A DNA stretch of 32,834 nucleotides from Phycisphaerales bacterium. GTDB taxonomy: Bacteria; Planctomycetota; Phycisphaerae; UBA1845; Fen-1342. Under the pieces are notes generated by a model that made no database searches, had not been told where the DNA came from, and saw nothing but the letters and a program-made list of their open reading frames with translations. Numbering within the stretch: the first letter of the stretch is position 1; the number at the start of each line of letters is the position of its first letter. The translations under genes were made by a program, and so were the position numbers. The stretch lies in assembly GCA_003162245.1 (NCBI GenBank), contig PMMM01000153.1, positions 1 to 32,834 on the forward strand, given 5' to 3'. This document shows positions 235 through 16,938 of this stretch, in pieces.

Positions 235-1031
235 GTGGATTCAGCCGGCGGTGCCGGTGGCCACAGTCAGCGCGCCACTTACGACGGCGCACGCCTGGTT
301 CACCGAAAACCTCTCCGAGCTGACCCGCCGGGCCCAGGGCTTTGCCCGCCGGTTTGCCCGTCGCCACCGCGACGACGCGGTGGCCGACATCCCGGGCCAG
401 ATCTTCCGCTACAGCTTGAGCGCCGCAGCCCGCGGCAAGCTGGCCTTGCTCACACCGTTCGCGCTGGTCTCGTTCTTCGGCCGGGCCCACGCCGCGGGCC
501 GCCAGCTCGCCGGCACCGACACGTAGGACCTGCTCTCGCCGACCGCCCAGCAGCGCCAGCGGCTGCGCGTCGTTTCGTTCGACGAGTGGTGCCGCGTGCG
601 GACACCGGGGGGGCGAGCACCGGCTGCCGTTGTCGGAGGTGCTGGCCGATCGCCGGGTCAAAAACCCGCTTGAGGCTTGCCGCCAGGATCTCGATTATCC
701 TGGCATCCTGCGCCAGCAGCACGCCAGCCGCCCGGCGCGCCGGGTGTTCGCCTACCTGGCCCAGACCCACGGTTCCAGACGCCAAACCGAACTGGCGCGC
801 GAACTGGAGGTCAGCCCGCCCCGCATTGTGCAGCTCAAGCACCGGCTCGTGGACTGCCTGGCGGGCGAGGATTACAGGCCGCCGCCGACCCGGCCACTCG
901 GCCCGCCACGGCCGAAGCGGGGTCGGCCGCGAGTGACGCGCAAGGCCGACCGGCAGGCCAGGCGCTACTGGTGCGGCCCCAAGGGGCACGTCCGCATGTC
1001 GCAGGCCGTTCAGGCCGGAGGTGTGGCATGA
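235..1031 (+). pseudogene. Decayed sigma-like / helix-turn-helix protein gene
   Basis: The reading frame is broken. The first piece (to about 526) encodes an Arg-rich helical stretch with FARRFARRHRDDAVADI and ends in a stop codon, after which DLLSPTAQQRQRLRVVSFDEW continues in frame. The last piece (about 630-1031) is in another frame and ends with RQTELARELEVSPPRIVQLK, which looks like a sigma-70 region 4-type helix-turn-helix. The layout (helical N-terminus, LSP..QR motif, C-terminal HTH) resembles a family I know from planctomycete mobile or accessory regions. The stop plus frameshift argues that it no longer makes a full protein. Its stop codon overlaps the ATG of the following ThiF-like remnant, as in an original gene pair. 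Family assignment is from memory of sequence style. Confidence 0.5.
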
Positions 1032-1200
1032 GCAGGCGTCACCGCAAGACGACGCAAGCCGCCAGCCGGGATCTGTCCACGCTCGTCGTGGGCTTGCACG
1101 AGATCAGCCGGCAAGTGGCCCTGCAACTGGCCACCCTCGGCCTCCAGAGGCTTACGCTGATCGACGCGGGCCGCGTCGGCACAGCCGACTGTGCCCGACT
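1028..1200 (+). pseudogene. ThiF/E1-like adenylyltransferase, N-terminal fragment
   Basis: The ATG at 1028 overlaps the stop of the upstream HTH remnant. The translation gives a Rossmann-like start typical of the ThiF/MoeB/E1 superfamily: LVVGLHEISRQVALQLATLG followed by LTLIDAGRVG, the usual beta-alpha-beta with an acidic residue ending strand 2. The canonical GxGxxG is altered (GLHEIS). After about 55 residues the similarity stops and the frame runs into a different, transposase-like sequence, so the gene is truncated. No ATP-binding or catalytic cysteine region remains. Non-functional in all likelihood. Confidence 0.45.
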
Positions 1201-1299
1201 GCTCGCGATCGGTCAGGAGCTCGACCACAACGTCGCGGACGTGATCGGCATCGTCACGCCGCAGACATATTGTCGCTCGGTCACGGAACTGCGGGAAGG

Positions 1300-1640
1300 G
1301 CGCCAGCCCAGACGGGTCGGTCGGCCAAAGATCGCCCGGAACCTGCGCGAACTCGTGGTCCGCCTCGCGAAAGAGAACGCCGGCTGGAGGGCTGCATCGC
1401 CGGTACACGCGGGACGCTTGAACGGGCGCGGGCGCCGCCGGTCATACTGTCAGCGGAGCAGAACGCACGTGACGGGCTGGTCCTGCGCCGACCTGGACAG
1501 AACGCCCGTTGCGCGGCGTTCTGGACGTACTTCGGCGTGGCGCGTCGACCCCAACGGGCTCAATCGTCCTGGTGTCTGCCGTTCCGCGTGGCCGCGACGA
1601 AGTTCTCGATATGCACACGGGGCCGACGGTTTGCTCACAG
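1300..1640 (+). pseudogene. Remnant of an rve-type (IS3/IS481-like) transposase
   Basis: Around 1318-1390 the translation reads GRPKIARNLRELVVRLAKEN followed by GW, closely matching the HTH-to-core linker of integrase-core transposases (pattern GRPR...i..LvlrmAreNp.WGy.RI.GEL). Beyond this, weak matches continue only by switching frames and crossing stops (for example HTVS and then APTWTERP near 1430-1510), so the element has decayed. No inverted repeats or catalytic DDE residues could be placed. It fills the gap between the ThiF-like fragment and the end of the gas vesicle genes. Confidence 0.45.
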
Positions 1641-1982
1641 GAGCTTCCCAAGCGGGCCAAGATCCAGGTTGAGATCCTCGTCGCGTAGCCCGAACTCGTG
1701 CTTGAGTCGGGTCATTTCCTCGGCCAGGCGCATGAACGTCGTCCCGAGCCGCTCCACCTCGGCGTCGGTCAGCGACCCGCCCTCGATCCGCCGGATCGCC
1801 TGGCGCTCCAACAGCTCGCGCAGCAGCTCGACCACTGTGAGGACCAGCTTCCCCAGGCCGTTACGGACGTCGTCCTGCCGCAGCTCGATCCGCGGCGGGC
1901 TGGCCGCGGCCGCCGGCGACATTGCACCGGCGAAATCGCCCAGGGCCCGCGATTCGGCGTGCACGATTTCAGCCGTCCGCAT
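1635..1982 (-). CDS. gvpK: Gas vesicle protein GvpK
   Basis: A 115-residue protein of the GvpK family, a small accessory protein needed for gas vesicle formation in several bacteria; its exact role is unsettled. The family pattern is clear: IELRQDDVRNGLGKLVLTVV, then ELLRELLERQAIRRIEGGSL, then a C-terminal LNLDLGPLGKLL. The ATG at 1982 is chosen because GGGAGG lies seven bases upstream; longer in-frame extensions lack a ribosome site and look non-coding. It overlaps the end of the preceding gvpS-like gene by 14 bases, so the two are probably translationally coupled. It is the last recognisable gene of the locus. The S-K order matches the Bacillus megaterium gvp cluster. Confidence 0.92.
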   Translation of the reverse strand: MRTAEIVHAESRALGDFAGAMSPAAAASPPRIELRQDDVRNGLGKLVLTVVELLRELLERQAIRRIEGGSLTDAEVERLGTTFMRLAEEMTRLKHEFGLRDEDLNLDLGPLGKLL

Positions 1983-2217
1983 GATTCGCCTCCCGCCGCA
2001 GCGCTCGGGCTCCCGCGACCCCGTTCTTGCGCGCACTCTCCACGGAAGTGAGCACCAGTTGGAGCCCCAGATAGACCAAATCAATGTCCGCCACGGAGAT
2101 GAGCACCTCGCCCACCACCACCACGCCCTTGGTCAGCACGCGATCCAGGATCTCGCACAACGAGATGTGTTCCTGCTCGGCCGACAAACACTGCGTTGAC
2201 TGTGTGTCCGTATTCAT
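1969..2217 (-). CDS. gvpS: GvpA-fold minor gas vesicle protein (GvpS-like)
   Basis: An 82-residue protein of the GvpA/J/M/S family, whose members form or initiate the gas vesicle shell. Residues about 18-62 carry the family core: ISLCEILDRVLTKGVVVVGE followed by VLISVADIDLVYLGLQLVL, the amphipathic helix-beta-beta-helix unit. I call it GvpS-like because of the VADIDLVYLGL variant and its position directly before gvpK, as in Bacillus megaterium; GvpM or GvpJ are possible names for the same fold. It lacks the long C-terminal tail of some GvpJ proteins. GAGGAAAG lies upstream of the ATG. The upstream neighbour is the ArsA-like ATPase gene, 28 bases away. Confidence 0.8.
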   Translation of the reverse strand: MNTDTQSTQCLSAEQEHISLCEILDRVLTKGVVVVGEVLISVADIDLVYLGLQLVLTSVESARKNGVAGARALRREANHADG

Positions 2218-2245: not shown

Positions 2246-4276
2246 TCATGTGCAATACAACGCCTGCCCCAGCTCTGTCAGGCGCGCCAGCCCGCGCGGC
2301 GACGCGCCGCGGTACACGACCACCGGACGCGCAGCCTCGAACGTCGCGCTGAACTTCGCGCAAACCCCCGCTTCCTGCCGCGTGAGAGCTTCGCCAACGG
2401 GGCACGCCCCCGCCGGCCGGACCATGTTCACGAACAGCGCCGGTACGTGTATCCCCGCCTGCCGGCAAGCGGTCAGCAGATCGCAAGTCTCGGCATACGC
2501 CATCTCGGTCGGAATCGTCACTACGTGCAGGCTCGTCTTGTGCGGATCCACGAGCAACGAGCGCAACACCTTGAGCCGTTTGGACAGAGTAACAAGCAAC
2601 TCCGAGATGCGCGGAACTCGCAACACGCGCTTGTACTTCAGCAGGAGGCCAAAGAAGACCCCCAGCCAGCGCTGGACGAGCGCCGGCAGTTCCAGCAGGC
2701 GGATCAGGTGCCCCGTCGGGGCCGTGTCACAAACAAACGTGTCATACTCCTTCGCTTCGAGAAACTGGATCACGCGCGCTAGCGCCATGACCTCATCGAT
2801 GCCCGGCGGCGAAAGGTCCATGATGCGCTCCGCGACCTCGCGGTCGAAAGCTACATCCAGCCCCCCCGCCGACTCCGTAAGACGCTCAAAGAGCCCTTCG
2901 ACCTCCTCTGCGTACTGTTTCTTCAAGTCTGCAAACTCTCCCTCGGCGTCGATTTCGATGGCACTGAGCCGTTCGTTCAACCTGACCGCGCTGGGACCGA
3001 TGCGTGTCCCCAGACAATCGGAAAGGGAGTGCGCCGGGTCCACCGAGAACAGCAGGATCTGCCGGTCCCGGTACTCCTGCGCCAGCCGCAACGCCGTGGC
3101 GCTGGCCAACGTGGTCTTTCCCACGCCGCCCTTTCCGGCGAAGAACAGCAGGCTCGTTTCAGTCGCCGGCAGACGGGCGGGATGCTCCACCCGCGGCGAC
3201 GACGACCACTCTGGTCCGTCCTGTGCCGATGGATGGACTTCGACCGGAGATTCTCGGTCCGCGTCGCACGCCGCGGACTCCGGCCGGTCCACGTCACGGA
3301 CGCCATCCCAGAAAACCGCGAGCTGCGAATCGCCCTGCGCGTCGAACGCCTGGAACGGAACCGACCACAGCCGGTAGCCGGGAAACGCCGCGCGGATGCG
3401 GCGTATTTCCTCGGCTTGCCCGCGTAGATCCGCACAATTCGGCGGGCAGCCCGCCCCCACAGGGCACGCCCGGTTGACCACAATCTCCCGAACCGGAACC
3501 CCCAGCCGCTCGAGCGCTTGCACGAGGCGCACGGTTTCGTCCGTGACCAGCGGCTCGGCGAGCGTGACGGGTACGAAGCAACACCGGCGCGGATCGGCCA
3601 GCAGCGACGCCAGACCCTCGATCGTCGCCGCGAACTCCTCCAGAAACCGCTCGGCGTCGTCCGGACGATGCCGGCCGCTGTACAGCTTCACCATCCACCG
3701 ATGTTTGGCAACCAGGGCGTCGAGCGCGCCGAGCCATTTGCGCAACACGTCCGGGAGCCCGAGCAGTCTGAGCGTGTGCCCCGTGGGAGCCGTGTCCACG
3801 ATGATGCCGCCGTAGGCGCCGCCCTTCGCCAGGGCCGCCAGCTCGATGAACGCCATCAGCTCATCGAGACCCGGCAGGGACAGGTCCAGGAGCTTGCCGA
3901 TGTCGTCGTCGTCCAGGAACGTTCCGCGTTGGGCGATCTGCCGCAGGTGCCCGGCGTGCGCCGCCTTGAACTGGCGGAGACTCTCCTGGGCGTCCAATTC
4001 GCGCACCTCGAGGTTCGGCGGCCGCGTCGCGCCCGCCAGGCAGTCCTGGAGCGAGTGGGCGGGGTCAGTCGAGGCAAGTAGGTAGTCCTGATCCGGGAAG
4101 AGTCGGGCCCAGTGCAGCGCCGTGCCGGTCGCGCAGGTCGTCTTGCCAACCCCGCCCTTGCCGCCAAAGAGCAGCAGGCGGACCGCGCCCGGCTCCAAGA
4201 ACGCCGGGCGATCGCGCGGCTTGGTGCGCGGGCTCGCCAGGCCGCTACTCGTCTGCGTCCGGCTCATCGCCTGCAC
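2246..4276 (-). CDS. Tandem-domain ArsA/Get3-family ATPase
   Basis: A 676-residue soluble ATPase made of two ArsA/Get3 domains. Each half has the deviant Walker A with signature lysine, GKGGVGKTT (residues about 39-47 and 381-389), a VDPAHSL or TDPAHSL switch, and the family DTAPTGH motif (161-167 and 517-523). The linker (about 325-372) is acidic and Ser/Pro-rich. ArsA proteins energise arsenite efflux; Get3 relatives shield hydrophobic membrane segments. No arsB, arsR or arsC genes are nearby, so an arsenic role is not supported by context. Between gvpG and gvpS it sits where Bacillus megaterium has gvpL. A chaperone role for hydrophobic shell proteins is inference. The start overlaps the end of gvpG by 32 bases (ATG 4276) or 23 bases (ATG 4267). 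Confidence 0.9.
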   Translation of the reverse strand: MQAMSRTQTSSGLASPRTKPRDRPAFLEPGAVRLLLFGGKGGVGKTTCATGTALHWARLFPDQDYLLASTDPAHSLQDCLAGATRPPNLEVRELDAQESLRQFKAAHAGHLRQIAQRGTFLDDDDIGKLLDLSLPGLDELMAFIELAALAKGGAYGGIIVDTAPTGHTLRLLGLPDVLRKWLGALDALVAKHRWMVKLYSGRHRPDDAERFLEEFAATIEGLASLLADPRRCCFVPVTLAEPLVTDETVRLVQALERLGVPVREIVVNRACPVGAGCPPNCADLRGQAEEIRRIRAAFPGYRLWSVPFQAFDAQGDSQLAVFWDGVRDVDRPESAACDADRESPVEVHPSAQDGPEWSSSPRVEHPARLPATETSLLFFAGKGGVGKTTLASATALRLAQEYRDRQILLFSVDPAHSLSDCLGTRIGPSAVRLNERLSAIEIDAEGEFADLKKQYAEEVEGLFERLTESAGGLDVAFDREVAERIMDLSPPGIDEVMALARVIQFLEAKEYDTFVCDTAPTGHLIRLLELPALVQRWLGVFFGLLLKYKRVLRVPRISELLVTLSKRLKVLRSLLVDPHKTSLHVVTIPTEMAYAETCDLLTACRQAGIHVPALFVNMVRPAGACPVGEALTRQEAGVCAKFSATFEAARPVVVYRGASPRGLARLTELGQALYCT

Positions 4277-4508
4277 CCGCGTCGCGCGCCTCGATTCGAT
4301 CCAAACGGTCGAGCAGCACTACTTCGGCGTCGTCGAACTCCTGCTCGGTGATCTGCTGCGCCTCCAGCTTCATGTACAGCTCGCGCAGCTCGGTCCGGAT
4401 GGCGTCGCCTTCGCTCTCGCACTCCTGCTCAACGGCCTTGTGGACTTCGCGCAGGATGTGTAGGAGGCCTCGCATCGGAAACCACAGCAGCCTGTCGATG
4501 ACCAGCAT
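4245..4508 (-). CDS. gvpG: Gas vesicle protein GvpG
   Basis: An 87-residue GvpG protein, an accessory factor that interacts with GvpF/L-type proteins during assembly. The hydrophobic start (MLVIDRLLWFPMRGLLHILR) followed by a long charged helix (EQECESEGDAIRTELRELYM, then LEAQQITEQEFDDAEVVLLD) is the usual GvpG layout, ending in an acidic tail. The ATG at 4508 starts exactly at the family N-terminus; the frame is open further upstream, but that stretch is the shadow of gvpF. No strong ribosome site is seen, and it lies 17 bases after the gvpF stop, so it may depend on coupled translation. Its end overlaps the ArsA-like gene. Confidence 0.9.
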   Translation of the reverse strand: MLVIDRLLWFPMRGLLHILREVHKAVEQECESEGDAIRTELRELYMKLEAQQITEQEFDDAEVVLLDRLDRIEARDAGAGDEPDADE

Positions 4509-4525: not shown

Positions 4526-5284
4526 TCACATCTGTAGGTTGACGTCGACGAAGTTGTGCGGTGCCCACGGACCGTTGTAGTCGAAGCAGTAGTTGGCATC
4601 GAATTGGCCAGCCACCGCGACCACGCCCTGCGCAAACGCATCTTCCGTGCCGCGTGCGATAAGGCACGCCATCCGCACGAGCTCGCACTCGTCCTGTAGC
4701 TTGTTCTCCTTGATCTCGTCGCAACAGGCACGCAGGCCCTGCTCGACGCGCTCGGCGGCCGTGGCCCGGTCCTCCTCCAGCAGGCGTTCGACCAACCGGC
4801 CCAGCTCCATCCGCTCATCGGCCGACGGATCGCGGCCCTGCCGAAACGCCCGATCGCGGGCGGCGCGCAGCTCCTCGTGTTGGTTGACGAGGTACTCGAA
4901 CAGGTTCGCTACATCCCAGCGCACCCGCAGGCCCATCTCCACCCGGCCGCTCAGCCGCTCCAGCCGCTCGACGAGGGTCTCCTGGTTCAATTCGAGGATT
5001 CGCCGTATGTCCTCGGGCCCGTCGGCAATGACGCCGAACGACATCGGCATGGGCGAGCCGTCCTCCATGAGGCGTTTGAGGACCCGCTGATGGGCAGCGA
5101 GATGCCGCCGCTGGGGCCGCAGCGACCGTTGCTTCAGGTCGCTGACCACGGCGGCGACCGCCCCACAGGAAATGCAGTACACCAACTCGTCGTCAATGCC
5201 GATCGGCCCATAGGTGCGGTCCCCCGCACCGGCGATCACCGCGTAGAGATAGGTTCCGCCGGCGTGGTCTTCGTGTGTCGCCAT
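4526..5284 (-). CDS. gvpF: Gas vesicle protein GvpF (GvpF/L family, copy 1)
   Basis: A 252-residue GvpF/L-family protein, which binds GvpA and is thought to take part in shell nucleation or chaperoning. It starts with the family strand TYLYAVIAG, contains MSFGVIADGPEDIRRIL and a Glu/Arg-rich helical region (residues 100-190), and ends with NGPWAPHNFVDV, a variant of the hallmark GPWPPYSFV. It is the only GvpF/L copy inside the structural part of the locus; two more lie near 11.2-12.8 kb. The ATG at 5284 lies seven bases after the zinc-ribbon gene stop with a weak ribosome site, so coupling is likely. The symbol follows its position just before gvpG. Confidence 0.92.
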   Translation of the reverse strand: MATHEDHAGGTYLYAVIAGAGDRTYGPIGIDDELVYCISCGAVAAVVSDLKQRSLRPQRRHLAAHQRVLKRLMEDGSPMPMSFGVIADGPEDIRRILELNQETLVERLERLSGRVEMGLRVRWDVANLFEYLVNQHEELRAARDRAFRQGRDPSADERMELGRLVERLLEEDRATAAERVEQGLRACCDEIKENKLQDECELVRMACLIARGTEDAFAQGVVAVAGQFDANYCFDYNGPWAPHNFVDVNLQM

Positions 5285-5290
5285 GAGTCA

Positions 5291-5560
5291 TCACCGTTCT
5301 TCTATGATTCGGCTGCCCGCCGCACCGCACCGCCGTGACGCACGGCCTGACTCATCCTCGGCCAGCTCCGCGCCGGCGAACGCCTGAGGGAGCGACGCGC
5401 TGGGTACGTGCTCGCGACCTCTCGCCGCCTTGACGCACCCGTCTTTGGCGCGGATCTCAAAGACCGCGCCACAGACCCAGCACCGGATCGGTCCCTCGTA
5501 ATCGTCGTAGGCTTCATCCAGCTCGACGCTGTGTCCGCACGCCAAACATCTGATTTTCAT
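5291..5560 (-). CDS. Small zinc-ribbon protein in the gas vesicle operon
   Basis: An 89-residue protein with two CxxC pairs at the N-terminus (CLAC at 5-8 and CWVC at 28-31) separated by an acidic linker LDEAYDDYEG, consistent with a single zinc ribbon. The C-terminal half (about 45-89) is low-complexity, Ala/Glu/Arg-rich and probably disordered. The ribosome site AAAGGAGA precedes the ATG at 5560. It lies between the gvpO-like gene and gvpF on the same strand with short gaps, so it belongs to the operon. I do not recognise a named family; an assembly or regulatory adaptor role is only a guess from position. Confidence 0.75.
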   Translation of the reverse strand: MKIRCLACGHSVELDEAYDDYEGPIRCWVCGAVFEIRAKDGCVKAARGREHVPSASLPQAFAGAELAEDESGRASRRCGAAGSRIIEER

Positions 5561-5602: not shown

Positions 5603-5953
5603 TCACGCGTCCACCGAGTCCTTGAGCCCGTACGCGACGATGCTCAGTTGTGCGTCCAGCCGCAGCAGGTACGTCTCCGTATCCACGACGGGCCGCCGCG
5701 TGGGCAACCCGAGCGCCTTGACGGTCGCATTCGGTACCTGGACGTCCGCTTCCGCCTCCCACAGACACTTGTCGGCGTCGATCACCGCCAGCTTGGTGAC
5801 CGCGGCGCCGAGCGCGTCCGGCACCGTCCGGAGCAGAAAGTCCCGCGCGGCGCCGGCCAATTGCTCGACGGATGGGGATTCCTTGTGTGGCTCCTCCACC
5901 CCCGGCTGCGCCACCCGCTGGGCCATGGTCACGCGGTCAAGGATCGATGCCAC
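5603..5953 (-). CDS. gvpO: Gas vesicle protein GvpO-like
   Basis: About 116 residues. The C-terminal half resembles GvpO: WEAEADVQVPNATVKALGLP, then DTETYLLRLDAQLSIVAYGL, matching the family pattern W.VEVEV.E...P.......YEV.LD..G.l..Y. GvpO is an essential gas vesicle protein in haloarchaea and is common in actinobacterial gvp clusters; its mechanism is unknown. The N-terminal third is Gln/Glu-rich and not conserved. I prefer the GTG at 5953 because AGAAAGG lies eight bases upstream; an in-frame GTG at 5962 would sit directly on that site. Neighbours are the coiled-coil gene upstream (57 bases) and the zinc-ribbon gene downstream. Confidence 0.72.
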   Translation of the reverse strand: MASILDRVTMAQRVAQPGVEEPHKESPSVEQLAGAARDFLLRTVPDALGAAVTKLAVIDADKCLWEAEADVQVPNATVKALGLPTRRPVVDTETYLLRLDAQLSIVAYGLKDSVDA

Positions 5954-6010
5954 GCGATCCACCTTTCTGCGCCGTCCTCACGCCGCACCGCCCCCGTTGC
6001 GCATCGTGCT

Positions 6011-6337
6011 TCAGTACTTGACCCTGAACTGCCGCTTCTTGCGGTGTACCGGGGCAGGCCCGGTCCCCTTTTCGACGGCCGCCGGACGCAGGCCGTCCGC
6101 CCCGCCCGCCATCGCGCGCCGGACGGCGTCGGCCTCGCCCTCGATCTCCTGGAGACGGGCGTCGATCTTCTGCAGACGACGTACGACGCTGTTCCGCTCG
6201 ATCCCGCGCCGCGTCTTCTCCATCTCGATCCACGCGAGCTTCATGTACGCCCGGTGGGGCCGCGACGCCTCGTCCGCGCGCCCGGACAGGGTCCGGAGAT
6301 CGCGCAAGGTGCGCTGGTTACGTTTCGTTACAGACAT
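6011..6337 (-). CDS. Small coiled-coil protein of the gas vesicle operon
   Basis: A 108-residue, very basic protein. Residues about 28-75 form a continuous charged helix (AYMKLAWIEMEKTRRGIERN, then VVRRLQKIDARLQEIEGEAD) with heptad-like spacing, so a coiled coil is likely; the C-terminus is basic and disordered, ending RKKRQFRVKY. GGAG lies seven bases before the ATG at 6337, which overlaps the end of gvpN by 20 bases. No cysteines or catalytic motifs. I do not recognise a named Gvp family. Similar small helical proteins accompany gvp clusters in other bacteria, so an assembly role is plausible but unproven. Confidence 0.75.
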   Translation of the reverse strand: MSVTKRNQRTLRDLRTLSGRADEASRPHRAYMKLAWIEMEKTRRGIERNSVVRRLQKIDARLQEIEGEADAVRRAMAGGADGLRPAAVEKGTGPAPVHRKKRQFRVKY

Positions 6338-7382
6338 AGTCGGGCTCCGCTACCGGCTTTGGTGTCGCAATGAAGCCCCGTTTTGCGGACGGCGCCGCGC
6401 CGCCTCCGCAGATCCGCTGGATGGCTTCATCCACCTTGCGGATCGCCACCGGCTCGCCGTCGTGCGTGACGGAAGCGGTGTCCATGTTCAGCACGTCGCG
6501 GCAGACCCATTGAAACACCGGGTCGCTCCGGCCGGCGTGCGCCTTCCGATGCACGAGAATCCGGGCAATCGTGATGCAGGCCCGAATCGTCGGACGGTGG
6601 GGGCTCACGCCGACGCTGCGCAGCTCGCGGACCACGTCCACGATGCGCTCGGCGTCCGCCCGCGCGATCCCGGACTTCCGGATGGTGACCTCGATCTCGG
6701 TCTGGCGGTCATAGTGATTGAGGTGGAGCGTGACCAGCCGGTCCATGAGCGCATCCTGGGTCTTGTGTGTGCCGGCGTATTCCTCAGGATTCGAGGTGAA
6801 GATCGCGCGGAAGTTGGGGTGCACGTCCACATAGCCTTCGCCGGTCACGCTCAGCTTCGGCAAATTGAGGATCTTCTCGGCCAGGATGCTGAGCAAGACG
6901 TTGTTCGCCTCCGGTTTCGAGCGTGTGAACTCGTCGTAGATCAGCGTAAACCCCTTCTCGCACGCGGTCGTGAGCCGATTGTCCACCCACAGCATCTTCA
7001 TCTCTTCCTCCGTCTTCAGCACGGAGTGAATGAAGTTGTCAACGAGCGTCTTCTTGGAATACCCGGCGTCGCGGCCAATCAGGTCGGAACTGCCGAACTC
7101 GTCATCGCCGTGGATCAGCACGACCGGGCGGCCGAGCTGCGCGGCCAGGTGGAAAGCCAGCGTCGTCTTGCCCGTGCCCGCGGGCCCGGCCAGGTGCACC
7201 GGGTACCCAATCTCCAGGTACGCCAGACCGCGCTCGGTCACGTTCTGGACATACGGGGTAAGCACGAACTCGTCGCTCGGCTCCGGGACGATGCCGCGCT
7301 GATCGAGCTCGAGCCGCGGCCCGGGTTCGGGCGCGAACCGCGTCTCGGGTGTGGACGTCAGTTGTTCAACAGCTTCGCTCAT
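6318..7382 (-). CDS. gvpN: Gas vesicle AAA+ ATPase GvpN
   Basis: GvpN, a MoxR-type AAA+ ATPase required for gas vesicle enlargement. With the start used here (354 residues) the Walker A motif GPAGTGKTT is at about 66-74, Walker B TLIYDEF at 146-152, and sensor 1 FTSNPEEYAG follows IFxxN-type spacing. The C-terminal arginine-rich lid is present. I place the start at ATG 7382 because AAGGAG precedes it by about ten bases; the frame is open to an ATG at 7487, which would add 35 Lys/Arg/Pro-rich residues, and that longer form cannot be excluded. It overlaps the coiled-coil gene by 20 bases. GvpN and the CDC48-type protein at 12.8-14.9 kb give this locus two unrelated AAA+ machines. Confidence 0.93.
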   Translation of the reverse strand: MSEAVEQLTSTPETRFAPEPGPRLELDQRGIVPEPSDEFVLTPYVQNVTERGLAYLEIGYPVHLAGPAGTGKTTLAFHLAAQLGRPVVLIHGDDEFGSSDLIGRDAGYSKKTLVDNFIHSVLKTEEEMKMLWVDNRLTTACEKGFTLIYDEFTRSKPEANNVLLSILAEKILNLPKLSVTGEGYVDVHPNFRAIFTSNPEEYAGTHKTQDALMDRLVTLHLNHYDRQTEIEVTIRKSGIARADAERIVDVVRELRSVGVSPHRPTIRACITIARILVHRKAHAGRSDPVFQWVCRDVLNMDTASVTHDGEPVAIRKVDEAIQRICGGGAAPSAKRGFIATPKPVAEPDYVCNET

Positions 7383-7542
7383 GAGGTCGGCACTCCTTGC
7401 GGTCGGTCCGGCGGCTTCCACGGGCCCCCGGTCTCGGCCCGGGACTCGCCGCCCCGTAACTCGCTTTGTGCGCACTTTTTTCTTCATTCCGCAGCGCCTA
7501 CCGTCCTGGGAACCGCGTCTTCAGTCTGAATGACAGCCGCCA

Positions 7543-7857
7543 TCAGCGCACCGGAACCGGCTCGGCCTGACCCACGGCACGTTCCAGCCGCTCGAGCCGC
7601 GCCGACAGCGCCGCCGCGCCGCTTTCATCCAGTTGGGGCTGTGCGCGGGAAGAGTACGCCGGCTCCCGCTCCCACCAGTCGATCCCGATTTCCTTGGCTT
7701 TGTCCACCGACGCGATCAGCAAGCGGATCTGGATCGTCAGCAGCTCGACGTCTGCCAGCTTCACTTTGATGTCGCCGGCGATCACGATCCCCTTATCGAG
7801 AATCCGCTCGAGCAGGTCCGCCAGATTCGTCGTATCCGTCGCGTGCTGCAGATGCAT
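7543..7857 (-). CDS. gvpJ: GvpA-fold gas vesicle protein (GvpJ-like)
   Basis: A 104-residue member of the GvpA/J family. Residues 10-62 hold the shell-protein core: [20 protein letters not shown], then KLADVELLTIQIRLLIASVD, followed by KAKEIGIDWWE. Unlike GvpA it has a 40-residue charged C-terminal tail (QPQLDESGAAALSARLERLE), as in GvpJ, a minor protein proposed to act in cap formation or nucleation. It could instead be a second GvpA/GvpB type; the VKLADVELLTI segment and the tail favour GvpJ. GGAGG precedes the ATG by about eight bases. The gene lies directly downstream of the damaged gvpC-like gene and the IS66 remnant, and upstream of gvpN. Confidence 0.82.
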   Translation of the reverse strand: MHLQHATDTTNLADLLERILDKGIVIAGDIKVKLADVELLTIQIRLLIASVDKAKEIGIDWWEREPAYSSRAQPQLDESGAAALSARLERLERAVGQAEPVPVR

Positions 7858-8805: not shown

Positions 8806-8953
8806 GTTCACATCTCCTCAAATGTTCAGACTTCCAACACGCTCTCCGTTTCCGTATCGCCGTGTTCGCCGCTGCCGGCGAAACGCGGTGCCGACCCCGG
8901 CGACATTGGTCTTCGCGAGGCCTCCAGACGCGCGAGCCCGCGACCGCGGAAAT

Positions 8954-9024: not shown

Positions 9025-9243
9025 TTACGCCGGGGCTGCCGCAGTCGCCGTGAGGCCGACGGCCTCCGCGTACTTCAGGTACGTCTCCACCGAGGCGATT
9101 ACGGCGCGGGCCTCGATCGAGAGCAGCTCGATGCCGACCAGGGATACCTTGGCCCAGGCATCGACCACAATCCCCTTGTCCAGGATGCGGTCGATAACCT
9201 CGGCCAGACTCGAACTCTCAGTAGCCTTTTGAACCTTCGCCAT
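9025..9243 (-). CDS. gvpA: Major gas vesicle shell protein GvpA
   Basis: A 72-residue, near-canonical GvpA, the main structural protein that polymerises into the ribbed, gas-permeable shell. The conserved core is intact: [20 protein letters not shown], then [20 protein letters not shown], then [14 protein letters not shown], with a short Ala/Thr tail. Length is typical of the family (about 70-75). GGAGG lies upstream of the ATG at 9243. It is the first gene behind a sigma-54 promoter (9502-9517), implying a leader of about 250 nt, and is followed by a hairpin that may limit read-through into the gvpC-like gene. Confidence 0.97.
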
Positions 9244-9611: not shown

Positions 9612-9656
9612 TGAGTTCCCCTATGGAACTCATGCCACTATGGAATCGATTCCATA
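9612..9656. promoter_or_regulatory. Two palindromes, probable activator sites for gvpA
   Basis: Site 1 (9612-9632) has 8-bp arms TGAGTTCC and GGAACTCA around a 5-bp spacer. Site 2 (9639-9656) is a perfect 18-bp palindrome, TATGGAATCGATTCCATA. Both contain TATGGAA and GGAA/TTCC halves. They lie about 120-165 bp upstream of the expected gvpA start, the usual distance for NtrC-type enhancer binding. Site 1 overlaps the stop codon of the kinase gene and site 2 lies inside its last codons. A terminator is less likely because no T-tract follows. Confidence 0.65.
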
Positions 9657-11198
9657 CTGGGCTGACGGGTGCTTGTCGCCGCCCGGCGGCCGCAACGCGG
9701 TGAGCGGAAGCGCGACAGTCACGGTTGTGCCGTCGCCCTCGCGGCTGGCGATGTCGATCCGGCCCTTGTGTTCCTGCACGATGGCGTAGCTAATGGAGAG
9801 GCCCAGGCCCGTACCTTTACCGATCGGCATGGTCGTGAAGAACGGGTCAAAGACCCGCGGCAGGTCGGCACTGCGTATACCTGCGCCGGTGTCCGCAATC
9901 TCGAGTACGGCCTGATTCTGGACTTCCGTTAGCGCGATGCGCAACACGCCGCCATGCTCAGACATGGCATTCGCGGCGTTCAACACCAGGTTGGTGACAA
10001 GCTGCTGCAAGAGCGCCGCGTTGCCGCTGACCCACGCCGGATGGTCCGGGGCCTGCCTGACAACCTGGATCTGGCTCGACGCGAGCTGGTTGGCCACGGG
10101 CGCCAGAGCCTCATCGACTAACGGCCCCAGGTCCAGCGGCTCCATCACGCCTTGGTCGGATGATCGCGCGAAGCACAGCAGGCCCTCGACAATGCTGCTC
10201 GCCTTCTGCGTCGCGCGGCAAATGCACTTGGCGCACTCCCGCTGGATGTCTGCCGTGAGTGTCTTCTCGGCCAGCAACTGCGCCGACGATGAAATCACCG
10301 CCAGCGGGTTGCGGACCTCATGGGCAATGCCGCCCGCCATCACCCCCAGCGCCGCCAGCTTCTCGGACTGGAGCAACCGGGCTTCCAACTTGCGGCGTTC
10401 CGTCAGGTCACGCCCGACGGCGACCAGGCCGACCACACGGCCATCCGTGCCGCGCATCGACGAGATGACCCACGCGATCGGTACCGCGTCGCCTCCGCGG
10501 TTCGCAAGCTCAATCTCGACCGGCTCCCTGCGGCCCTCGCGCGGCGCCTGGTCGAGAATCGCCGCCAGCACGGCGCGTTGCGGCTCGGCCGCCAACTCAT
10601 AGAGGTAGCGGTCGCGCACCTCGCTCTCGGAGTACCCGGTCACCCCTTCGGCGGCCGTATTCCAGGTCAACACACGCCCGGCAATGTCAGTGGATACGAT
10701 GATGTCGGTGGCGCTCTCGACGACACTAGCCAAATGGCGCTCGGCCTGGCGCGCCTCGCGCCCGAGCCGCACCTGCTCGGTTACATCCTCCATGAGCAGC
10801 ATCACGTGCCCGACCGTGCCGTCTTGGCCGAACGGTATCAGGCTGTAGTAGTACGTCCGAGTCGGCAGACCGGGCGCCCGGTACACCATTTGCTCGCCCT
10901 TGACGGTGGCGCCGCTCTGAAACACCGCGGCGATGCGCTCTTGCAAGTGCAGGTGCTCACAGATGCCCGGTGGGAATGCGTCCTGAAGAAACCGGCCAAT
11001 CACGTTGGCTTCCGACACGCGCGCCTTCACCAGGAAATTGTGGTTCGCCGCCACGACCCGCAGGTGATCGTCGACCAGCAGCACCGAGCACGGTATATTG
11101 GCCAAGAGCATGTTGTAGAGTCGCTCGTACCCGTCCAGCCGGGGATCATCCGGCGCGCGCGCCGGGGTCCGTGGGGCTTGTGTAGTCAGCAGAGTCAT
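9630..11198 (-). CDS. Soluble PAS-PAS sensor histidine kinase (NtrB-like)
   Basis: A 522-residue cytoplasmic histidine kinase with no membrane segments. Two PAS domains (about 25-145 and 153-268) precede a HisKA domain with the H-box GGIAHEVRNPL (His293) and a HATPase domain with N-box NLVLNAANAM (403-412), DTGAG (436-440), DPFFTT and GKGTGLGLS. The layout matches NtrB-type kinases that partner sigma-54 activators, so the NtrC-type protein at 15.5-16.9 kb is the likely target. The PAS ligand is unknown; a CAKC motif (322-325) lies outside the PAS domains. Its ATG overlaps the stop of the preceding GvpF/L gene (ATGA), so it is made together with assembly proteins. It ends over the gvpA activator palindromes. 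Confidence 0.9.
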   Translation of the reverse strand: MTLLTTQAPRTPARAPDDPRLDGYERLYNMLLANIPCSVLLVDDHLRVVAANHNFLVKARVSEANVIGRFLQDAFPPGICEHLHLQERIAAVFQSGATVKGEQMVYRAPGLPTRTYYYSLIPFGQDGTVGHVMLLMEDVTEQVRLGREARQAERHLASVVESATDIIVSTDIAGRVLTWNTAAEGVTGYSESEVRDRYLYELAAEPQRAVLAAILDQAPREGRREPVEIELANRGGDAVPIAWVISSMRGTDGRVVGLVAVGRDLTERRKLEARLLQSEKLAALGVMAGGIAHEVRNPLAVISSSAQLLAEKTLTADIQRECAKCICRATQKASSIVEGLLCFARSSDQGVMEPLDLGPLVDEALAPVANQLASSQIQVVRQAPDHPAWVSGNAALLQQLVTNLVLNAANAMSEHGGVLRIALTEVQNQAVLEIADTGAGIRSADLPRVFDPFFTTMPIGKGTGLGLSISYAIVQEHKGRIDIASREGDGTTVTVALPLTALRPPGGDKHPSAQYGIDSIVA

Positions 11199-11911
11199 GA
11201 CACGACTTCCGTCTCTTGCGGCGCGACGAAGCTGTATGGTGCCCAGGGCCCGCTTACCAGCAGGCGATAGCCGACGCGCTCCTGGAGGCGCCGAAACTCG
11301 CCACGGAACGCGCCGATCTGCCCGCGTCGAATCAGGAAATACAGCGACATGAGCACGTGCGGCCCGATGACCGCCTGGGTGGCGCGCGACTGCACGCTCA
11401 GGCCGCTGAACGTGCGCTCCACGACAGACCGCGCCGCTGCGACCGTTTCGCGCTCGGCGTCCCGACAGGCATAGGCCGCCCGGCGCGCGGCCAGGTATGC
11501 CACACCAGAGCCGACTTCATTTGTCCGGCCGCCATCATCCCCTACCGGACGCCCGGCAGTCGCCAGCAGAACGCGGACGCCCATTTCGACGCACCCATCC
11601 ACCTGGTCGAGCAACGCACCGAATTCCGCCCGGCGCACCCGCAGAAACTCGTGGACTTGCGTCTCAGACGGCAAGAGACACCCGTAGCGCATCGGAAGAA
11701 CCGTGCGGCGTCTCAAAAGCACTGCGATCGCATCGGCGTACGCCGTCGCGCGCGCCGCGTCCGCAGTGCGGTTGAGTTCCGACACACGTGAGACCGCGGC
11801 CGCCAACGCGTCCTCTGTGACCAACACGATCGGCGTCCCCTCGACACCTTCCGGAAGCCTGCCCCGCCAAGGCGGCCGAGCGCGGAGAATGCAGTACACC
11901 AGGTGCCTCAT
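11195..11911 (-). CDS. GvpF/L-family gas vesicle protein, copy 3
   Basis: A 238-residue GvpF/L protein. It opens with the family strand HLVYCILRARPP, contains LRRRTVLPMRYGCLLPSETQ (the conserved vlP.RFG.v region) and ends SGPWAPYSFVAPQE, the GPWPPYSFV hallmark. GvpL and GvpF proteins bind GvpA and other accessory proteins during nucleation. The ATG at 11911 overlaps the stop of the preceding GvpF/L gene by four bases; the frame is open further upstream, but that is the shadow of its neighbour. Its stop overlaps the kinase start. Whether it should be called GvpL or GvpF cannot be decided from sequence alone. Confidence 0.88.
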   Translation of the reverse strand: MRHLVYCILRARPPWRGRLPEGVEGTPIVLVTEDALAAAVSRVSELNRTADAARATAYADAIAVLLRRRTVLPMRYGCLLPSETQVHEFLRVRRAEFGALLDQVDGCVEMGVRVLLATAGRPVGDDGGRTNEVGSGVAYLAARRAAYACRDAERETVAAARSVVERTFSGLSVQSRATQAVIGPHVLMSLYFLIRRGQIGAFRGEFRRLQERVGYRLLVSGPWAPYSFVAPQETEVVS

Positions 11912-12759
11912 CGGCTCTGCTCGCCATCGAGAAGGGAGGGACAGAAGCTGTACGGCGGCCACGGCCCGCAGATGTTCAGACTGAGCCCCCGCTCCGCATA
12001 CCGGGCCTCGATTTCGATAGCGTGGTCGCGCCACGCGGCCACGCGGTCCTTCAATACCAACTGCGCGCAGTTGAGAACCATCTGGCGGTCCTGCCACGAC
12101 GCTTCTCTGTCCTGCAGCCGCAGCGGACAGATGTCGACGGCGTGCGCCGCGAGCAAGCGTTCGACCTCCCCGGCCGTCTGACGGCCCAGGTCTTGCAGCC
12201 GTCGCCGCGCGCCGACGCGCAACTGCCGGCCCTGGATATAGCGTAGCCCGGGCGATACCGGCCCCGGCTCGGTGGTTTCGTCGACGGCCGTCTGAGATGC
12301 CACGAGCCACGCTTCGGCTTTGGGCATGTCGAGGAACGCCTTGACCGACCACTCCTCCAGGTCGGCCATGCGCGCCAGAAACAGCCCGATCGGCCCCGCG
12401 TTCGCGGCCACCGTGCCCTCCAGAGCCGACGTGGACGAAAACACGGTTCCGAAGCGCACGGGCAACACCGGCGAAAACCGCATCACCTCTTCGACAACCC
12501 GTTCGTGCCGGCGCGCGCGCGGCGCAATCCACGCCACGTTCCGCAGATTCGCGTCGCCGGACGGCCCGCTGAAGGTCCCCACCGGCACCGGGCTATACAC
12601 CGCGGCGATTCCCTCCACCGCCAGCGCCGTAACGTCCGCGTCGTCGATGCCCGTGGTTTCGATCCGATCGGCAACCGTATCGCGCGCGAAACAGTACACG
12701 TACACGCCCGGGCCACTGGCCGGCAGTCGCGTGCACAGCTCAGACTCCGGCTCACGCAT
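11908..12759 (-). CDS. GvpF/L-family gas vesicle protein, copy 2 (GvpL-like)
   Basis: A 283-residue GvpF/L protein and the longest of the three copies. Residues 18-26 give the usual GVYVYCFAR start, MRFSPVLPVRFGTVFSS (93-109) is the conserved central segment, and the C-terminus has LNICGPWPPYSFCPS, a close match to the family hallmark. The middle region (about 130-200) carries an insertion relative to copy 3. The ATG at 12759 lies within the end of the CDC48-like gene (8-bp overlap), and its own stop overlaps the next start (ATGA), so translation is chained. Likely role: GvpA binding and shell nucleation. Confidence 0.9.
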   Translation of the reverse strand: MREPESELCTRLPASGPGVYVYCFARDTVADRIETTGIDDADVTALAVEGIAAVYSPVPVGTFSGPSGDANLRNVAWIAPRARRHERVVEEVMRFSPVLPVRFGTVFSSTSALEGTVAANAGPIGLFLARMADLEEWSVKAFLDMPKAEAWLVASQTAVDETTEPGPVSPGLRYIQGRQLRVGARRRLQDLGRQTAGEVERLLAAHAVDICPLRLQDREASWQDRQMVLNCAQLVLKDRVAAWRDHAIEIEARYAERGLSLNICGPWPPYSFCPSLLDGEQSR

Positions 12760-14890
12760 GATTCCGCTCGCGGCTTGCGAGTACCTCGGCCAGGGCCCGT
12801 TCCAGATGGTCCTGACGAATGACCAGCTTCTCGGGTGGCGGCTCATCGGTATCGCGCAACGCCTCGCGAATGGTCTCGAGCGCGGCCAGGTTGCACGCCG
12901 ACTGGATGTCCGCCCCGGTGCACCCCTCCGTCGCCGCGGCCAACTCGTCGACGCGGATACCCTCCGCCAGCGGCTTGCCGCGCAGTCCGATCCGAAAGAT
13001 CTCCTTGCGACCCTCGCCGTCCGGCCGCGGCACCTCAAGCTGCACGTCGAACCGCCCCGGCCGCCGGAGCGCCGGGTCCAGCATGTCCGGCCGGTTCGTC
13101 GCACCCAGCACGAGCACGTCGCCCAACTCCTCTATGCCGTCCAGCTCGGTGAGGAACTGGCTGATTACGCGCTCGGTGACGTGCGAATCGGAGCTCCCCG
13201 CGCCGCGGATCGGCACCAGCGCGTCGATCTCGTCGAAAAACACGATGCACGGCGCCGCCTGCTTGGCCTTGCGAAACACCTCGCGCACCGCCCGCTCCGA
13301 CTCCCCAACGTACTTCGAAAGCAGCTCCGGCCCTTTCACCGAAATGAAGTTCACTTCCGTCTCGTTCGCCACCGCCTTGACCAGCAGCGTCTTCCCGCAA
13401 CCCGGCGGCCCCGAAAGCAGAATCCCCTTCGGCGGCGCCACGGCCACGCGATCGAACAGCGCCCGGTGCTTCAGCGGCCACTCCACCGCCTCGATCAACC
13501 GCTGCTTGACCTCGCTCAGCCCGCCCACGTGCTCCCAGCGCACGTCCGGCACTTCCACAAACACTTCGCGAATCGCCGACGGCTCGACCTCCCGCAGCGC
13601 CTCCACGAAATCGTGCATGTGGACTTCCAGCCGCAGGAGTGCGTCGTACGGAATCTCCGCCGCCGCAAAGTCGATCTCCGGCAGCAGCCGCCGCAGGCAG
13701 ATCATCGCCGCCTCGCGACACAGGGCCTCCAGGTCGGCGCCGACGAACCCGTGCGTAATTGCGGCGATCCGCACCAAGTCCACGTCCGGCGCCAGCGGCA
13801 TACCGCGGCTGTGGATCGCGAGAATCTCCTGCCGTCCTTCGCGCCCCGGGATCGGGATCGTGATCTCGCGGTCGAAGCGCCCCGGCCGGCGCAGCGCCGG
13901 ATCAAGCGCGTTGGGGATGTTCGTGGCGGCCAGCACGATCACGTGCCCGCGCTGGGACAGCCCGTCCATCAGGGCCAGCAGTTGGGCGACCACCCGTTTC
14001 TCGACATCGCCGACGACCTGCTCGCGCCGTGGGGCGATCGCATCGATCTCGTCGAGAAAAATGATGCTCGGCGCCTTCCGCCCGGCCTCATCGAAGATCT
14101 TGCGCAGGTGCGCTTCGCTCTCGCCGTAGAACTTGTGGATGATCTCCGGCCCATTCACCGAGAAGAAGCTGGCATCCGTCTCGTGCGCCACCGCGCGCGC
14201 AATCAGCGTCTTGCCGCACCCCGGCGGCCCGAGCAGCAGCACGCCCTTCGGCGCATCGATGCCCAGCCGCTCGAACACCTCCGGATACCGCAGCGGCAGC
14301 TCCACGATCTCCCGGACACGGAGGATCTGCGGCTTCAGCCCCCCGACATCCTCGTACGAAACACCCCCCGCGGCCTCACTCTTCTCCGTCCGTCCGACTT
14401 CGAGCACCGTTGTCGGGCGCACGGTCACCGGCCCCGGCGGCGCTGTGCTCGCCACTTTGAAGTCCGCCGCGCGCGAGCCGAACAACGTGGCGCGGATGCG
14501 GTCCCCCGCCACCACCGGCAACCCGTCCAGCAGGCTGCCGATGTACTTCAGGTCGCGTTCCCGGGGCGTGATCGTCGTGGGGACGAGCACGACCCGCACG
14601 GCGGGGCGTGTGGCGATCTTGCGGACTTCCACCGCCTGGTCCAGACCGACGCCCACGTTTTCTCGCGTCAACCCGTCGATCTGAATCCGCGCGCGGCCAC
14701 GCTGCTCTTTGTACGCCGGCATGGCCTTCGCGACCGTCTTGCGCTTGCCGCTCAGCTCGACTACGTCGCCGATCTCCAGTCCCAGCGCGGCGATGTCGGC
14801 GGGGTCCATCCGCGCCAGCGCCCGGCCGACGTCCTTGCCGAGCGCCTCGGTGACCTTGAGGCTCAGCGTGGTGTCCGTGGCGACAGTCAC
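12752..14890 (-). CDS. CDC48/VAT-type double AAA+ ATPase
   Basis: A 712-residue CDC48/p97/VAT-family unfoldase. The N-domain (1-165) has the double-psi barrel start LKVTEALGKDVGRALARMDP and KTVAKAMPAY. D1 carries Walker A GPPGCGKT (221-228), Walker B IIFLDEID (276-283) and RRPGRFD; D2 carries GPPGCGKT (494-501) and IVFFDEID (549-556) with a second RRPGRFD. All ATPase motifs appear intact. These hexamers thread or remodel proteins and are common in archaea but patchy in bacteria. Here the gene overlaps the Hsp20-like gene upstream (ATGA) and a GvpF/L gene downstream, so it is made as part of the gas vesicle operon. Remodelling or clearing of shell subunits is the inferred role. Confidence 0.95.
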   Translation of the reverse strand: MTVATDTTLSLKVTEALGKDVGRALARMDPADIAALGLEIGDVVELSGKRKTVAKAMPAYKEQRGRARIQIDGLTRENVGVGLDQAVEVRKIATRPAVRVVLVPTTITPRERDLKYIGSLLDGLPVVAGDRIRATLFGSRAADFKVASTAPPGPVTVRPTTVLEVGRTEKSEAAGGVSYEDVGGLKPQILRVREIVELPLRYPEVFERLGIDAPKGVLLLGPPGCGKTLIARAVAHETDASFFSVNGPEIIHKFYGESEAHLRKIFDEAGRKAPSIIFLDEIDAIAPRREQVVGDVEKRVVAQLLALMDGLSQRGHVIVLAATNIPNALDPALRRPGRFDREITIPIPGREGRQEILAIHSRGMPLAPDVDLVRIAAITHGFVGADLEALCREAAMICLRRLLPEIDFAAAEIPYDALLRLEVHMHDFVEALREVEPSAIREVFVEVPDVRWEHVGGLSEVKQRLIEAVEWPLKHRALFDRVAVAPPKGILLSGPPGCGKTLLVKAVANETEVNFISVKGPELLSKYVGESERAVREVFRKAKQAAPCIVFFDEIDALVPIRGAGSSDSHVTERVISQFLTELDGIEELGDVLVLGATNRPDMLDPALRRPGRFDVQLEVPRPDGEGRKEIFRIGLRGKPLAEGIRVDELAAATEGCTGADIQSACNLAALETIREALRDTDEPPPEKLVIRQDHLERALAEVLASRERNHA

Positions 14891-15438
14891 TGGCCAGCCC
14901 CCCCATGTTTCTGCTCAGCCTGCTTCGCGAACCGGACTTCGACGACCCCGTTGTGGCACTTCCAACTCATGCGCTCAGCCGCAAACGTCGCCGGCAGCAA
15001 CACTTCGCGCCGGTATTTCTTGTCGCCGCGCTCCGCGGCAATCGTGAGAATGTCGTCTTGCAGGTCGAGCTTGACGTCGTCCGAGGCTATGCCGGGCATC
15101 TCGGCGACCACGAGCACGCAGTCCTGCTCGTCGAACAGGTCCACCATTGGCTCGCGAACCTCGTCCACGACCGTCTGGCCGGTCTTTTCGTCCTTCCGCA
15201 CGTTTCCGAACGGCTCGACGGTGACTCCCTCCCCGCCCAAGCCCGTGCGGATGTTGAATCCGTAGACGCCTTTGACCTTCCCGTCCGTGCTGCCGAACGT
15301 GCCGGACTTGCGCAGCTCCTCGCCCTTTTCGGCCAACTCGCCGAGCTTCTCGAGCATTGTGCCGAGCCCGTCGAGGATTCCGCCGAGGCCCGCCGTGCCC
15401 TTCTCTTCCGCGTCCTTCGTTGCTTTCTGTCTTGTCAT
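14887..15438 (-). CDS. gvpH: Hsp20/alpha-crystallin chaperone, GvpH-like
   Basis: A 183-residue small heat-shock protein. The N-terminal ~95 residues (helical, then Gly-rich) precede an alpha-crystallin domain: EPMVDLFDEQDCVLVVAEMP, then GIASDDVKLDLQDDILTIAA, ending in HNGVVEVRF, a form of the A-x-x-x-n-G-v-L motif. Gas vesicle clusters often include such a protein, called GvpH in haloarchaea, and it may protect aggregation-prone Gvp proteins. GGAGA precedes the ATG by eight bases. It starts a run of overlapping genes (Hsp20, CDC48, two GvpF/L, kinase). The 49-bp gap before it holds no perfect promoter. Confidence 0.85.
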   Translation of the reverse strand: MTRQKATKDAEEKGTAGLGGILDGLGTMLEKLGELAEKGEELRKSGTFGSTDGKVKGVYGFNIRTGLGGEGVTVEPFGNVRKDEKTGQTVVDEVREPMVDLFDEQDCVLVVAEMPGIASDDVKLDLQDDILTIAAERGDKKYRREVLLPATFAAERMSWKCHNGVVEVRFAKQAEQKHGGAGQ

Positions 15439-16891: not shown

Positions 16892-16938
16892 TTGCTTCCG
16901 CTCCGTCGCCGCCGCAGCCGGCGGCCTTCGAGACCCGG

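Follow-up and report, generated by a model that had tools for sequence, protein, structure and literature searches.

Within the 32,834-nucleotide stretch of DNA analysed here (the window), which derives from a Phycisphaerales bacterium, a gas vesicle (gvp) cluster includes a tandem ATPase of the ArsA/Get3 family, termed GV-ArsA. The locus raises the question of whether this protein belongs to an arsenite pump or is dedicated to gas vesicles. The association of ArsA with gas vesicles is already known, and since it was published in 2010 the idea that such proteins serve gas vesicles is not new. Castillo and Saier (2010; PMC2963123) described ArsA homologues in gvp operons, with the metalloid cysteines missing, which were proposed to energise gas vesicle biogenesis. 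Clusters 4 and 6 of that paper comprise two-domain proteins of about 640 aa with no arsenic genes, and the hosts named are cyanobacteria, Bacteroidetes/Chlorobi, Geobacter and an acidobacterium. GV-ArsA of the window likewise has two domains, lacks the metalloid cysteines and is encoded in a gvp cluster free of ars genes; it is a further member of the 2010 family. A 2017 cyanobacterial study also reported ArsA co-evolving with eight gas vesicle proteins (PMC5464585). The present analysis adds an interpretation as a Get3-like protein, a single-domain form and genomes that lack GvpN, none of which was found in the papers searched, as well as the evidence for an independent duplication. Get3-type client binding is not connected with these proteins in the accessible part of the 2010 paper, against which the present analysis also covers more phyla and includes a presence/absence test across a phylum; in the open-licence PMC literature, no paper pairing Get3 with gas vesicles was found.

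A tandem ATPase in a complete gas vesicle cluster

The gene is a real open reading frame without internal stops, starting at GTG 4276 or ATG 4267. Each half of the product matched PF02374 alone (173.5 and 172.5 bits; 4.4e-102 for the whole protein), in agreement with a first-pass annotation of the same DNA, which had recognised a two-domain ArsA-type ATPase at 2246-4276. The score on TIGR00345 (GET3_arsA_TRC40) was 345 bits, above the cut-off of 135. Motif comparison revealed that both nucleotide sites are complete in the window protein; across the GV family, the two P-loops and switch I vary little or not at all, and the SxDPAHS and most DTAPTGH (switch II) motifs are intact. The AlphaFold model (pLDDT 84, pTM 0.82) shows both domains as ordered, with a disordered linker (residues 334-356). 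Structural similarity search of this model with Foldseek ranked ArsA pseudodimers first (TM ~0.6), as expected because the query is a tandem chain, followed by TRC40/Get3 with TM <=0.80 over single domains.

The surrounding gvp cluster is complete (Table 1). Upstream of GV-ArsA are gvpN, gvpF/L and gvpG, and farther upstream gvpA, a gvpJ-like gene and two more gvpF/L genes; gvpN, gvpA, the gvpJ-like gene and the three gvpF/L genes all lie on the GV-ArsA strand. The GV-ArsA frame overlaps the end of gvpG by about 23-32 nt, according to the start codon (ATG or GTG, respectively), and a gvpS/J/M-type gene begins 28 nt downstream, followed by gvpK. The overlap with gvpG and the downstream gvpS noted in the first-pass annotation are thus confirmed by the coordinates. 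The genes annotated in the window include none recognised as arsenic-related, as that annotation had also stated.

Table 1. Coordinates of the ATPase, its domains and motifs, and the neighbouring genes in the window
Feature	Position	Strand	Evidence
GV-ArsA, tandem ArsA/Get3-family ATPase, 676 aa	2246..4276	-	ORF; PF02374; TIGR00345
N-terminal Get3/ArsA domain, residues 28-328	3293..4195	-	domain search; AlphaFold model
C-terminal Get3/ArsA domain, residues 370-675	2252..3169	-	domain search; AlphaFold model
N-half P-loop GGKGGVGKT, residues 38-46, invariant core	4139..4165	-	
C-half P-loop GKGGVGKT, residues 381-388, invariant core	3113..3136	-	
N-half equivalent of the Get3 client-groove/TRC40-insert region, 48 aa, K191 and R193 nearly invariant	3605..3748	-	
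C-half equivalent of the Get3 client-groove/TRC40-insert region, 41 aa, hydrophobic (RWLGVFFGLLLKYKRV...), W537 invariant, Y548 nearly so	2558..2680	-	
gvpG	4245..4508	-	PF05120 7.1e-14
gvpF/L, first copy	4526..5284	-	PF06386 1.1e-64
gvpS/J/M-type GvpA paralogue, downstream of the ATPase	1969..2217	-	PF00741 2.4e-15
gvpK	1635..1991	-	PF05121 5.3e-35
gvpN, AAA+ ATPase	6318..7487	-	TIGR02640 1.6e-104
gvpJ-like GvpA paralogue	7543..7857	-	PF00741 2e-17
gvpA, main shell protein	9025..9243	-	PRK09371 6.7e-39, over cut-off
gvpF/L, second copy	11195..11917	-	PF06386 4.6e-41
gvpF/L, third copy	11908..12741	-	PF06386 7.2e-49
CDC48-type double AAA+ ATPase, recurrent gvp-cluster neighbour	12752..14890	-	CDC48_N + AAA domains
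GvpH/Hsp20 small heat-shock protein	14887..15438	-	PF05455, PF00011, PF17886
PAS histidine kinase in the gvp cluster	9630-11198	-	
Sigma-54 response regulator in the gvp cluster	15488-16963	-	
Small gene between gvpN and gvpF	6011-6337	-	no Pfam match
Small gene between gvpN and gvpF	5603-5962	-	no Pfam match
Small gene between gvpN and gvpF, CxxC zinc-ribbon-like protein	5291-5560	-	no Pfam match
Long helical ORF between gvpA and the gvpJ-like gene	7894-8811	-	weakly apolipophorin-like
Frame beside the operon end, reading STLVVGLHEISRQVALQLATLGLQRLTLIDAGRV	1021-1408	+	resembles part of a ThiF/E1-type protein

Several neighbours merit mention in their own right. The PAS kinase, which recurs in related gvp clusters, and the sigma-54 regulator likely form a two-component control of gas vesicle expression. 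The CDC48-type ATPase and GvpH/Hsp20 form a pair adjoining gvpF/L that is present in many gvp clusters. The first and the last of the three small genes listed in Table 1 keep their position in related clusters. The long helical ORF could encode a GvpC-like or other shell-associated protein, and the plus-strand frame beside the operon end is perhaps degraded or from a mobile region.

Arsenite site, phylogeny and tandem duplication

The ArsA reference was an Enterobacter protein (L157) encoded in an annotated arsR-arsC-arsD-arsA operon, after which comes an arsenic transporter. The arsenite cysteines C113, C172 and C422 (C423 in the Enterobacter reference) are Cys in 12 of 12 true ArsAs. They are replaced in all 47 GV domains aligned, which present Gly, Lys (rarely Arg or Gln) and Gly at the respective columns; in archaeal Get3, the first and third of these are likewise Gly. 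The window protein scored 150 bits on TIGR04291, the arsenical ArsA model, against a cut-off of 650, and 181 bits on NF041417 against a cut-off of 800. The assembly (G000) has no ArsB, and one Acr3 on another contig.

In a single-domain tree, the GV domains form one clade (SH-aLRT 100), within which N halves and C halves group with supports of 97 and 95, respectively. Cyanobacterial and other GV domains fall together in this clade, the cyanobacterial relatives standing in for the 2010 sequences. Archaeal Get3 and the GV domains lie on the same side of a branch with a support of 100 and the arsenic ArsA halves on the other, and the nearest proteins to the GV domains are Get3/TRC40 of the archaeal type (e.g. 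M. thermautotrophicus TRC40, PDB 3zq6). By sequence, GV-ArsA is nearer archaeal Get3 than ArsA. A tandem duplication shared with ArsA, modelled by joining the N halves of both families, was rejected (dlnL 109, AU p = 0.0008), and the tandem form thus arose twice. Although GV-ArsA and ArsA (E. coli R773 type, with the Enterobacter protein as control) display the same tandem two-domain layout and fold, they differ in this separate duplication, in the arsenite cysteines and in the ArsB, ArsD or ArsR partner that GV-ArsA lacks.

A true arsenite/antimonite pump ATPase that came to lie in the gvp operon by chance, perhaps partnering the distant Acr3, is therefore extremely improbable: an arsenic pump was ruled out by the cysteine loss, the missing ArsB, the tree and the gvp context. 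The family annotation "ArsA", the single Acr3 of the genome and a Nodularia spumigena gene located after the gvp cluster (nsp15480), which was filed among arsenate-related genes (PMC3610870), speak for such a pump. They are outweighed by the three arsenite cysteines missing from every GV relative, the absence of ArsB from the genome, the low score on the arsenical model, the independent duplication and the confinement of GV-ArsA to gvp-bearing genomes described below. The annotation "ArsA" in aquatic bacteria often denotes a non-arsenic gene.

Single-domain forms of GV-ArsA, of about 313-325 aa, were found in Chlorobiota, Nitrospinota and Patescibacteria, and a single GV-ArsA domain occurs in a 414-codon open frame of G320. 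Such forms lie in gvp clusters at L097-L100, L103, L107 and L071, one of them from a relative of the window's phylum. They joined the N halves with a support of 36, and a placement with the C halves gave a p-AU of 0.57, so that they may either predate the duplication or have arisen by loss of a half.

Restriction to gvp-bearing genomes

Among 392 genomes of the phylum, profile searches revealed GvpK in 19 and GV-ArsA in 15, all of the latter with linked gvp genes. The GV-family profile displayed a clear gap, the 15 genomes scoring 146-872 bits and all others <=122 bits. GvpK was present in 14 of the 15; the genome without a GvpK match (G182) carries gvpF-gvpG-ArsA-gvpS on a 3117-bp contig. Co-occurrence of GV-ArsA and gvp genes was significant even with this genome scored as gvp-negative (Fisher p = 9e-21), a value that overstates independence because the species share ancestry. 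The count covers this single phylum. Four gvp clusters of the phylum (L063, L067, L068 and L074) have no GV-ArsA between gvpG and gvpS, and one such genome (G206) shares its genus with G182.

Beyond the phylum, loci of relatives extend to about ten more phyla. Relatives in named genomes were found with an alignment query, a single-sequence query having given no matches, and their organism names are taken from the records, which include many MAGs and some doubtful-looking entries (L080, L097). Nearly all the best relatives lie in gvp clusters, from Hydrogenedentes, Acidobacteriota, Thiohalocapsa, Planctomycetota, Bacteroidota, Chlorobiota, Nitrospinota, Patescibacteria, Myxococcota, Rokubacteria, Hakubella and cyanobacteria, and the same context was observed in Gammaproteobacteria. 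Some cyanobacterial copies are unlinked or only partly linked to gvp genes, and GvpA-family genes are present in 8/8 of these genomes (L083, L086, L087, L089, L096, L101, L105 and L108). The exceptions among the relatives, for which no GvpA-family match was found, are L094 (Citreicoccus), which has a long branch and a non-canonical second P-loop, L082, from a fragmentary MAG, and L153, which consists of two adjoining, distantly related single-domain genes.

The position of the gene is also conserved. Across 32 clusters, GV-ArsA is preceded by gvpG in 19 and by Hsp20 in 5. The gene that follows it is most often gvpS (14 clusters), then a CDC48-type ATPase (7) or gvpF/L (6). In the six clusters last mentioned, gvpS comes after gvpF/L, indicating that the ATPase was inserted after gvpG and did not replace gvpL; such a replacement is ruled out, and the "gvpL position" assigned to the gene in the first-pass annotation was inexact. 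Its recurrence in 15 genomes of the phylum and in other phyla likewise rules out a sporadic, one-off insertion.

The 36-kb plasmid p4 of Nostoc sphaeroides (L158) also bears a complete gvp cluster, which includes GV-ArsA and an AAA ATPase, so gvp clusters with GV-ArsA can be plasmid-borne. Movement of gvp clusters between lineages, together with the clusters that lack GV-ArsA, would fit a passenger gene of mobile gvp clusters without a gas vesicle role. This is very unlikely, given the co-occurrence in many phyla, the constant position after gvpG, the intact catalytic motifs and the gvp genes that still accompany unlinked cyanobacterial copies. GV-ArsA is almost certainly non-arsenic and gas-vesicle-dedicated, as had been suspected on first inspection: the arsenite cysteines and ArsB are absent, the association is the same in many phyla and the sequence is nearer archaeal Get3.

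According to a published description, every gas vesicle cluster has GvpN (PMC10903477). Contrary to this statement, no GvpN over the cut-off was found in nine GV-ArsA genomes (G003, G178, G149, G214 and G405-G409; L069, L073/L104, L090, L092, L093, L106 and L134), where the best score was 42 bits against 267, while three control genomes gave 320-354 bits. GV-ArsA is thus the only dedicated ATPase recognised in these nine genomes. The clusters are of Myxococcota, Rokubacteria, Acidobacteriota and Planctomycetota types, and several of the genomes are incomplete MAGs. GvpN is present in all four clusters without GV-ArsA, and every sufficiently complete cluster of the sample, which includes several incomplete MAGs, has GvpN and/or GV-ArsA.

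Get3-like features and a possible role in shell assembly

GV domains share with Get3/TRC40 Gly at the ArsA cysteine positions and complete P-loop and switch motifs; a long helical client segment and, in most cases, CxxC, the zinc motif of the Get3 dimer interface, add a partial resemblance. In the GV family, CxxC is present in 14/17 N halves and in 14/17 C halves, compared with 10/10 archaeal Get3 and 0/24 ArsA halves. The window protein itself has a degenerate motif, with CxxxC in the N half and no CxxC in the C half; CxxC is absent from some true Get3 as well (PMC10248533). The client-groove segment, which is reported to be retained among Get3 homologues but not by ArsA (PMC10248533), spans 48-50 aa in GV N halves, 41-43 aa in GV C halves and 51-55 aa in archaeal Get3, compared with mostly 34 and 22 aa in the two ArsA halves. 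Its mean GRAVY is +0.27 in the GV C half, -0.35 in the GV N half, -0.43 and -0.88 in ArsA and -0.47 in archaeal Get3, so that within GV-ArsA only the C half has a hydrophobic segment. Since even the archaeal segment fails to score as hydrophobic by this measure, hydropathy is a weak argument. The segment contains 0.8-1.9 Met per domain in GV-ArsA versus 4.7 in archaeal Get3. This comparison was chosen after the alignment was seen and is descriptive, the groove surface being judged on sequence and secondary structure. Get3/TRC40, a membrane-protein chaperone with tail-anchored and other hydrophobic clients, is a homodimer of single-domain subunits, whereas GV-ArsA of the window is a gvp-linked tandem pseudodimer with specialised halves and a shorter, Met-poor segment.

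The lost arsenic residues, the Get3-like character and the near-exclusive occurrence with gas vesicle genes suggest that GV-ArsA probably helps to build gas vesicles. There is an even chance that it does so in the manner of Get3, as an ATPase dedicated to gas vesicles that would hold hydrophobic shell proteins and deliver them; family resemblance and the hydrophobic helix suggest such client binding. GV-ArsA would then act as a covalent pseudodimer, derived from a tandem duplication separate from that of arsenite ArsA, in which ATP binding would close both halves and form a hydrophobic groove, mainly from C-half helices. There, a freshly synthesised member of the GvpA family (GvpA, GvpJ or GvpS) would be held by its hydrophobic segment, and hydrolysis at the two sites would open the groove, passing the subunit to the GvpF/GvpG/GvpN machinery at the growing vesicle. 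We infer both what the client would be and that ATP would drive its transfer. The more specific proposal, that an independently duplicated, asymmetric Get3 pseudodimer loads GvpA-family proteins by ATP and is the sole dedicated ATPase in the GvpN-less clusters (Myxococcota, Rokubacteria, Acidobacteriota and some Planctomycetota), is put forward tentatively and at slightly less than even confidence. If true, Get3-type delivery would be aimed at a protein-shelled gas organelle and not at a lipid membrane.

GvpA requires chaperoning in the cell, and recent reviews and interaction studies name the solubility and insertion of this very hydrophobic protein as an open question (PMC10903477, PMC11445434). 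A widespread, dedicated Get3-like ATPase, undiscussed in those GvpA studies, would be a direct candidate for its handling. Counting against a holding function, GvpF/GvpG are the currently favoured GvpA chaperones (PMC11445434), four clusters of the phylum lack GV-ArsA, the window protein has lost the strict CxxC, and the groove segment of GV domains is shorter and poorer in Met than that of archaeal Get3. Anabaena flos-aquae gvpA and gvpNJKFGWV yield vesicles in human cells without GV-ArsA (PMC10344784), which is thus not universally essential; host chaperones may help there. GvpN, an ATPase, and GvpF/GvpG are gas-vesicle-dedicated assembly factors as GV-ArsA appears to be, but its fold is unrelated to theirs and it is found with or without GvpN.

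A dedicated ATPase that does not bind shell segments, and instead remodels or regulates GvpF/L, GvpG or GvpK or acts as a nucleotide-driven switch, is a lesser but serious possibility. It would agree with the adjacency of GV-ArsA to gvpG and to gvpS or gvpF/L across phyla, with strong conservation at the nucleotide sites and with the near-invariant K191 and R193 of the N-half segment, which suggest a protein contact and not a greasy groove. It would also fit the general proposal of Castillo and Saier that the protein "energizes a biogenic step" (PMC2963123). Such a role leaves unexplained a Get3-type client segment that is hydrophobic in the C half and shortened in ArsA. Very unlikely is a ParA/MinD-like positioning or partitioning ATPase that spreads gas vesicles in the cell. 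Get3/ArsA and ParA/MinD share the deviant-Walker-A P-loop class and weak ParA/MinD profile matches were obtained, but these cover the P-loop region only (19-48 bits against cut-offs of 180-213), and domain order, the switch II DTAPTGH and the fold are all those of Get3/ArsA.

The natural contrasts between clusters with and without GV-ArsA, and with and without GvpN, make the role of GV-ArsA testable, and the protein may be of use in engineering, where gvp clusters moved into E. coli do not always work. A further Get3-family protein of photosynthetic bacteria with a client segment is Get3d, a fusion of Get3 with an alpha-crystallin domain (PMC10248533). A Pfam scan of GV-ArsA of the window found no fused alpha-crystallin domain and, unlike Get3d, GV-ArsA usually retains CxxC. 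The fusion has a parallel in Chlorobi gvp clusters, where a separate Hsp20 gene directly precedes single-domain GV-ArsA, and the gene order in Chlorobiota and Nitrospinota is Hsp20, single-domain GV-ArsA, CDC48.
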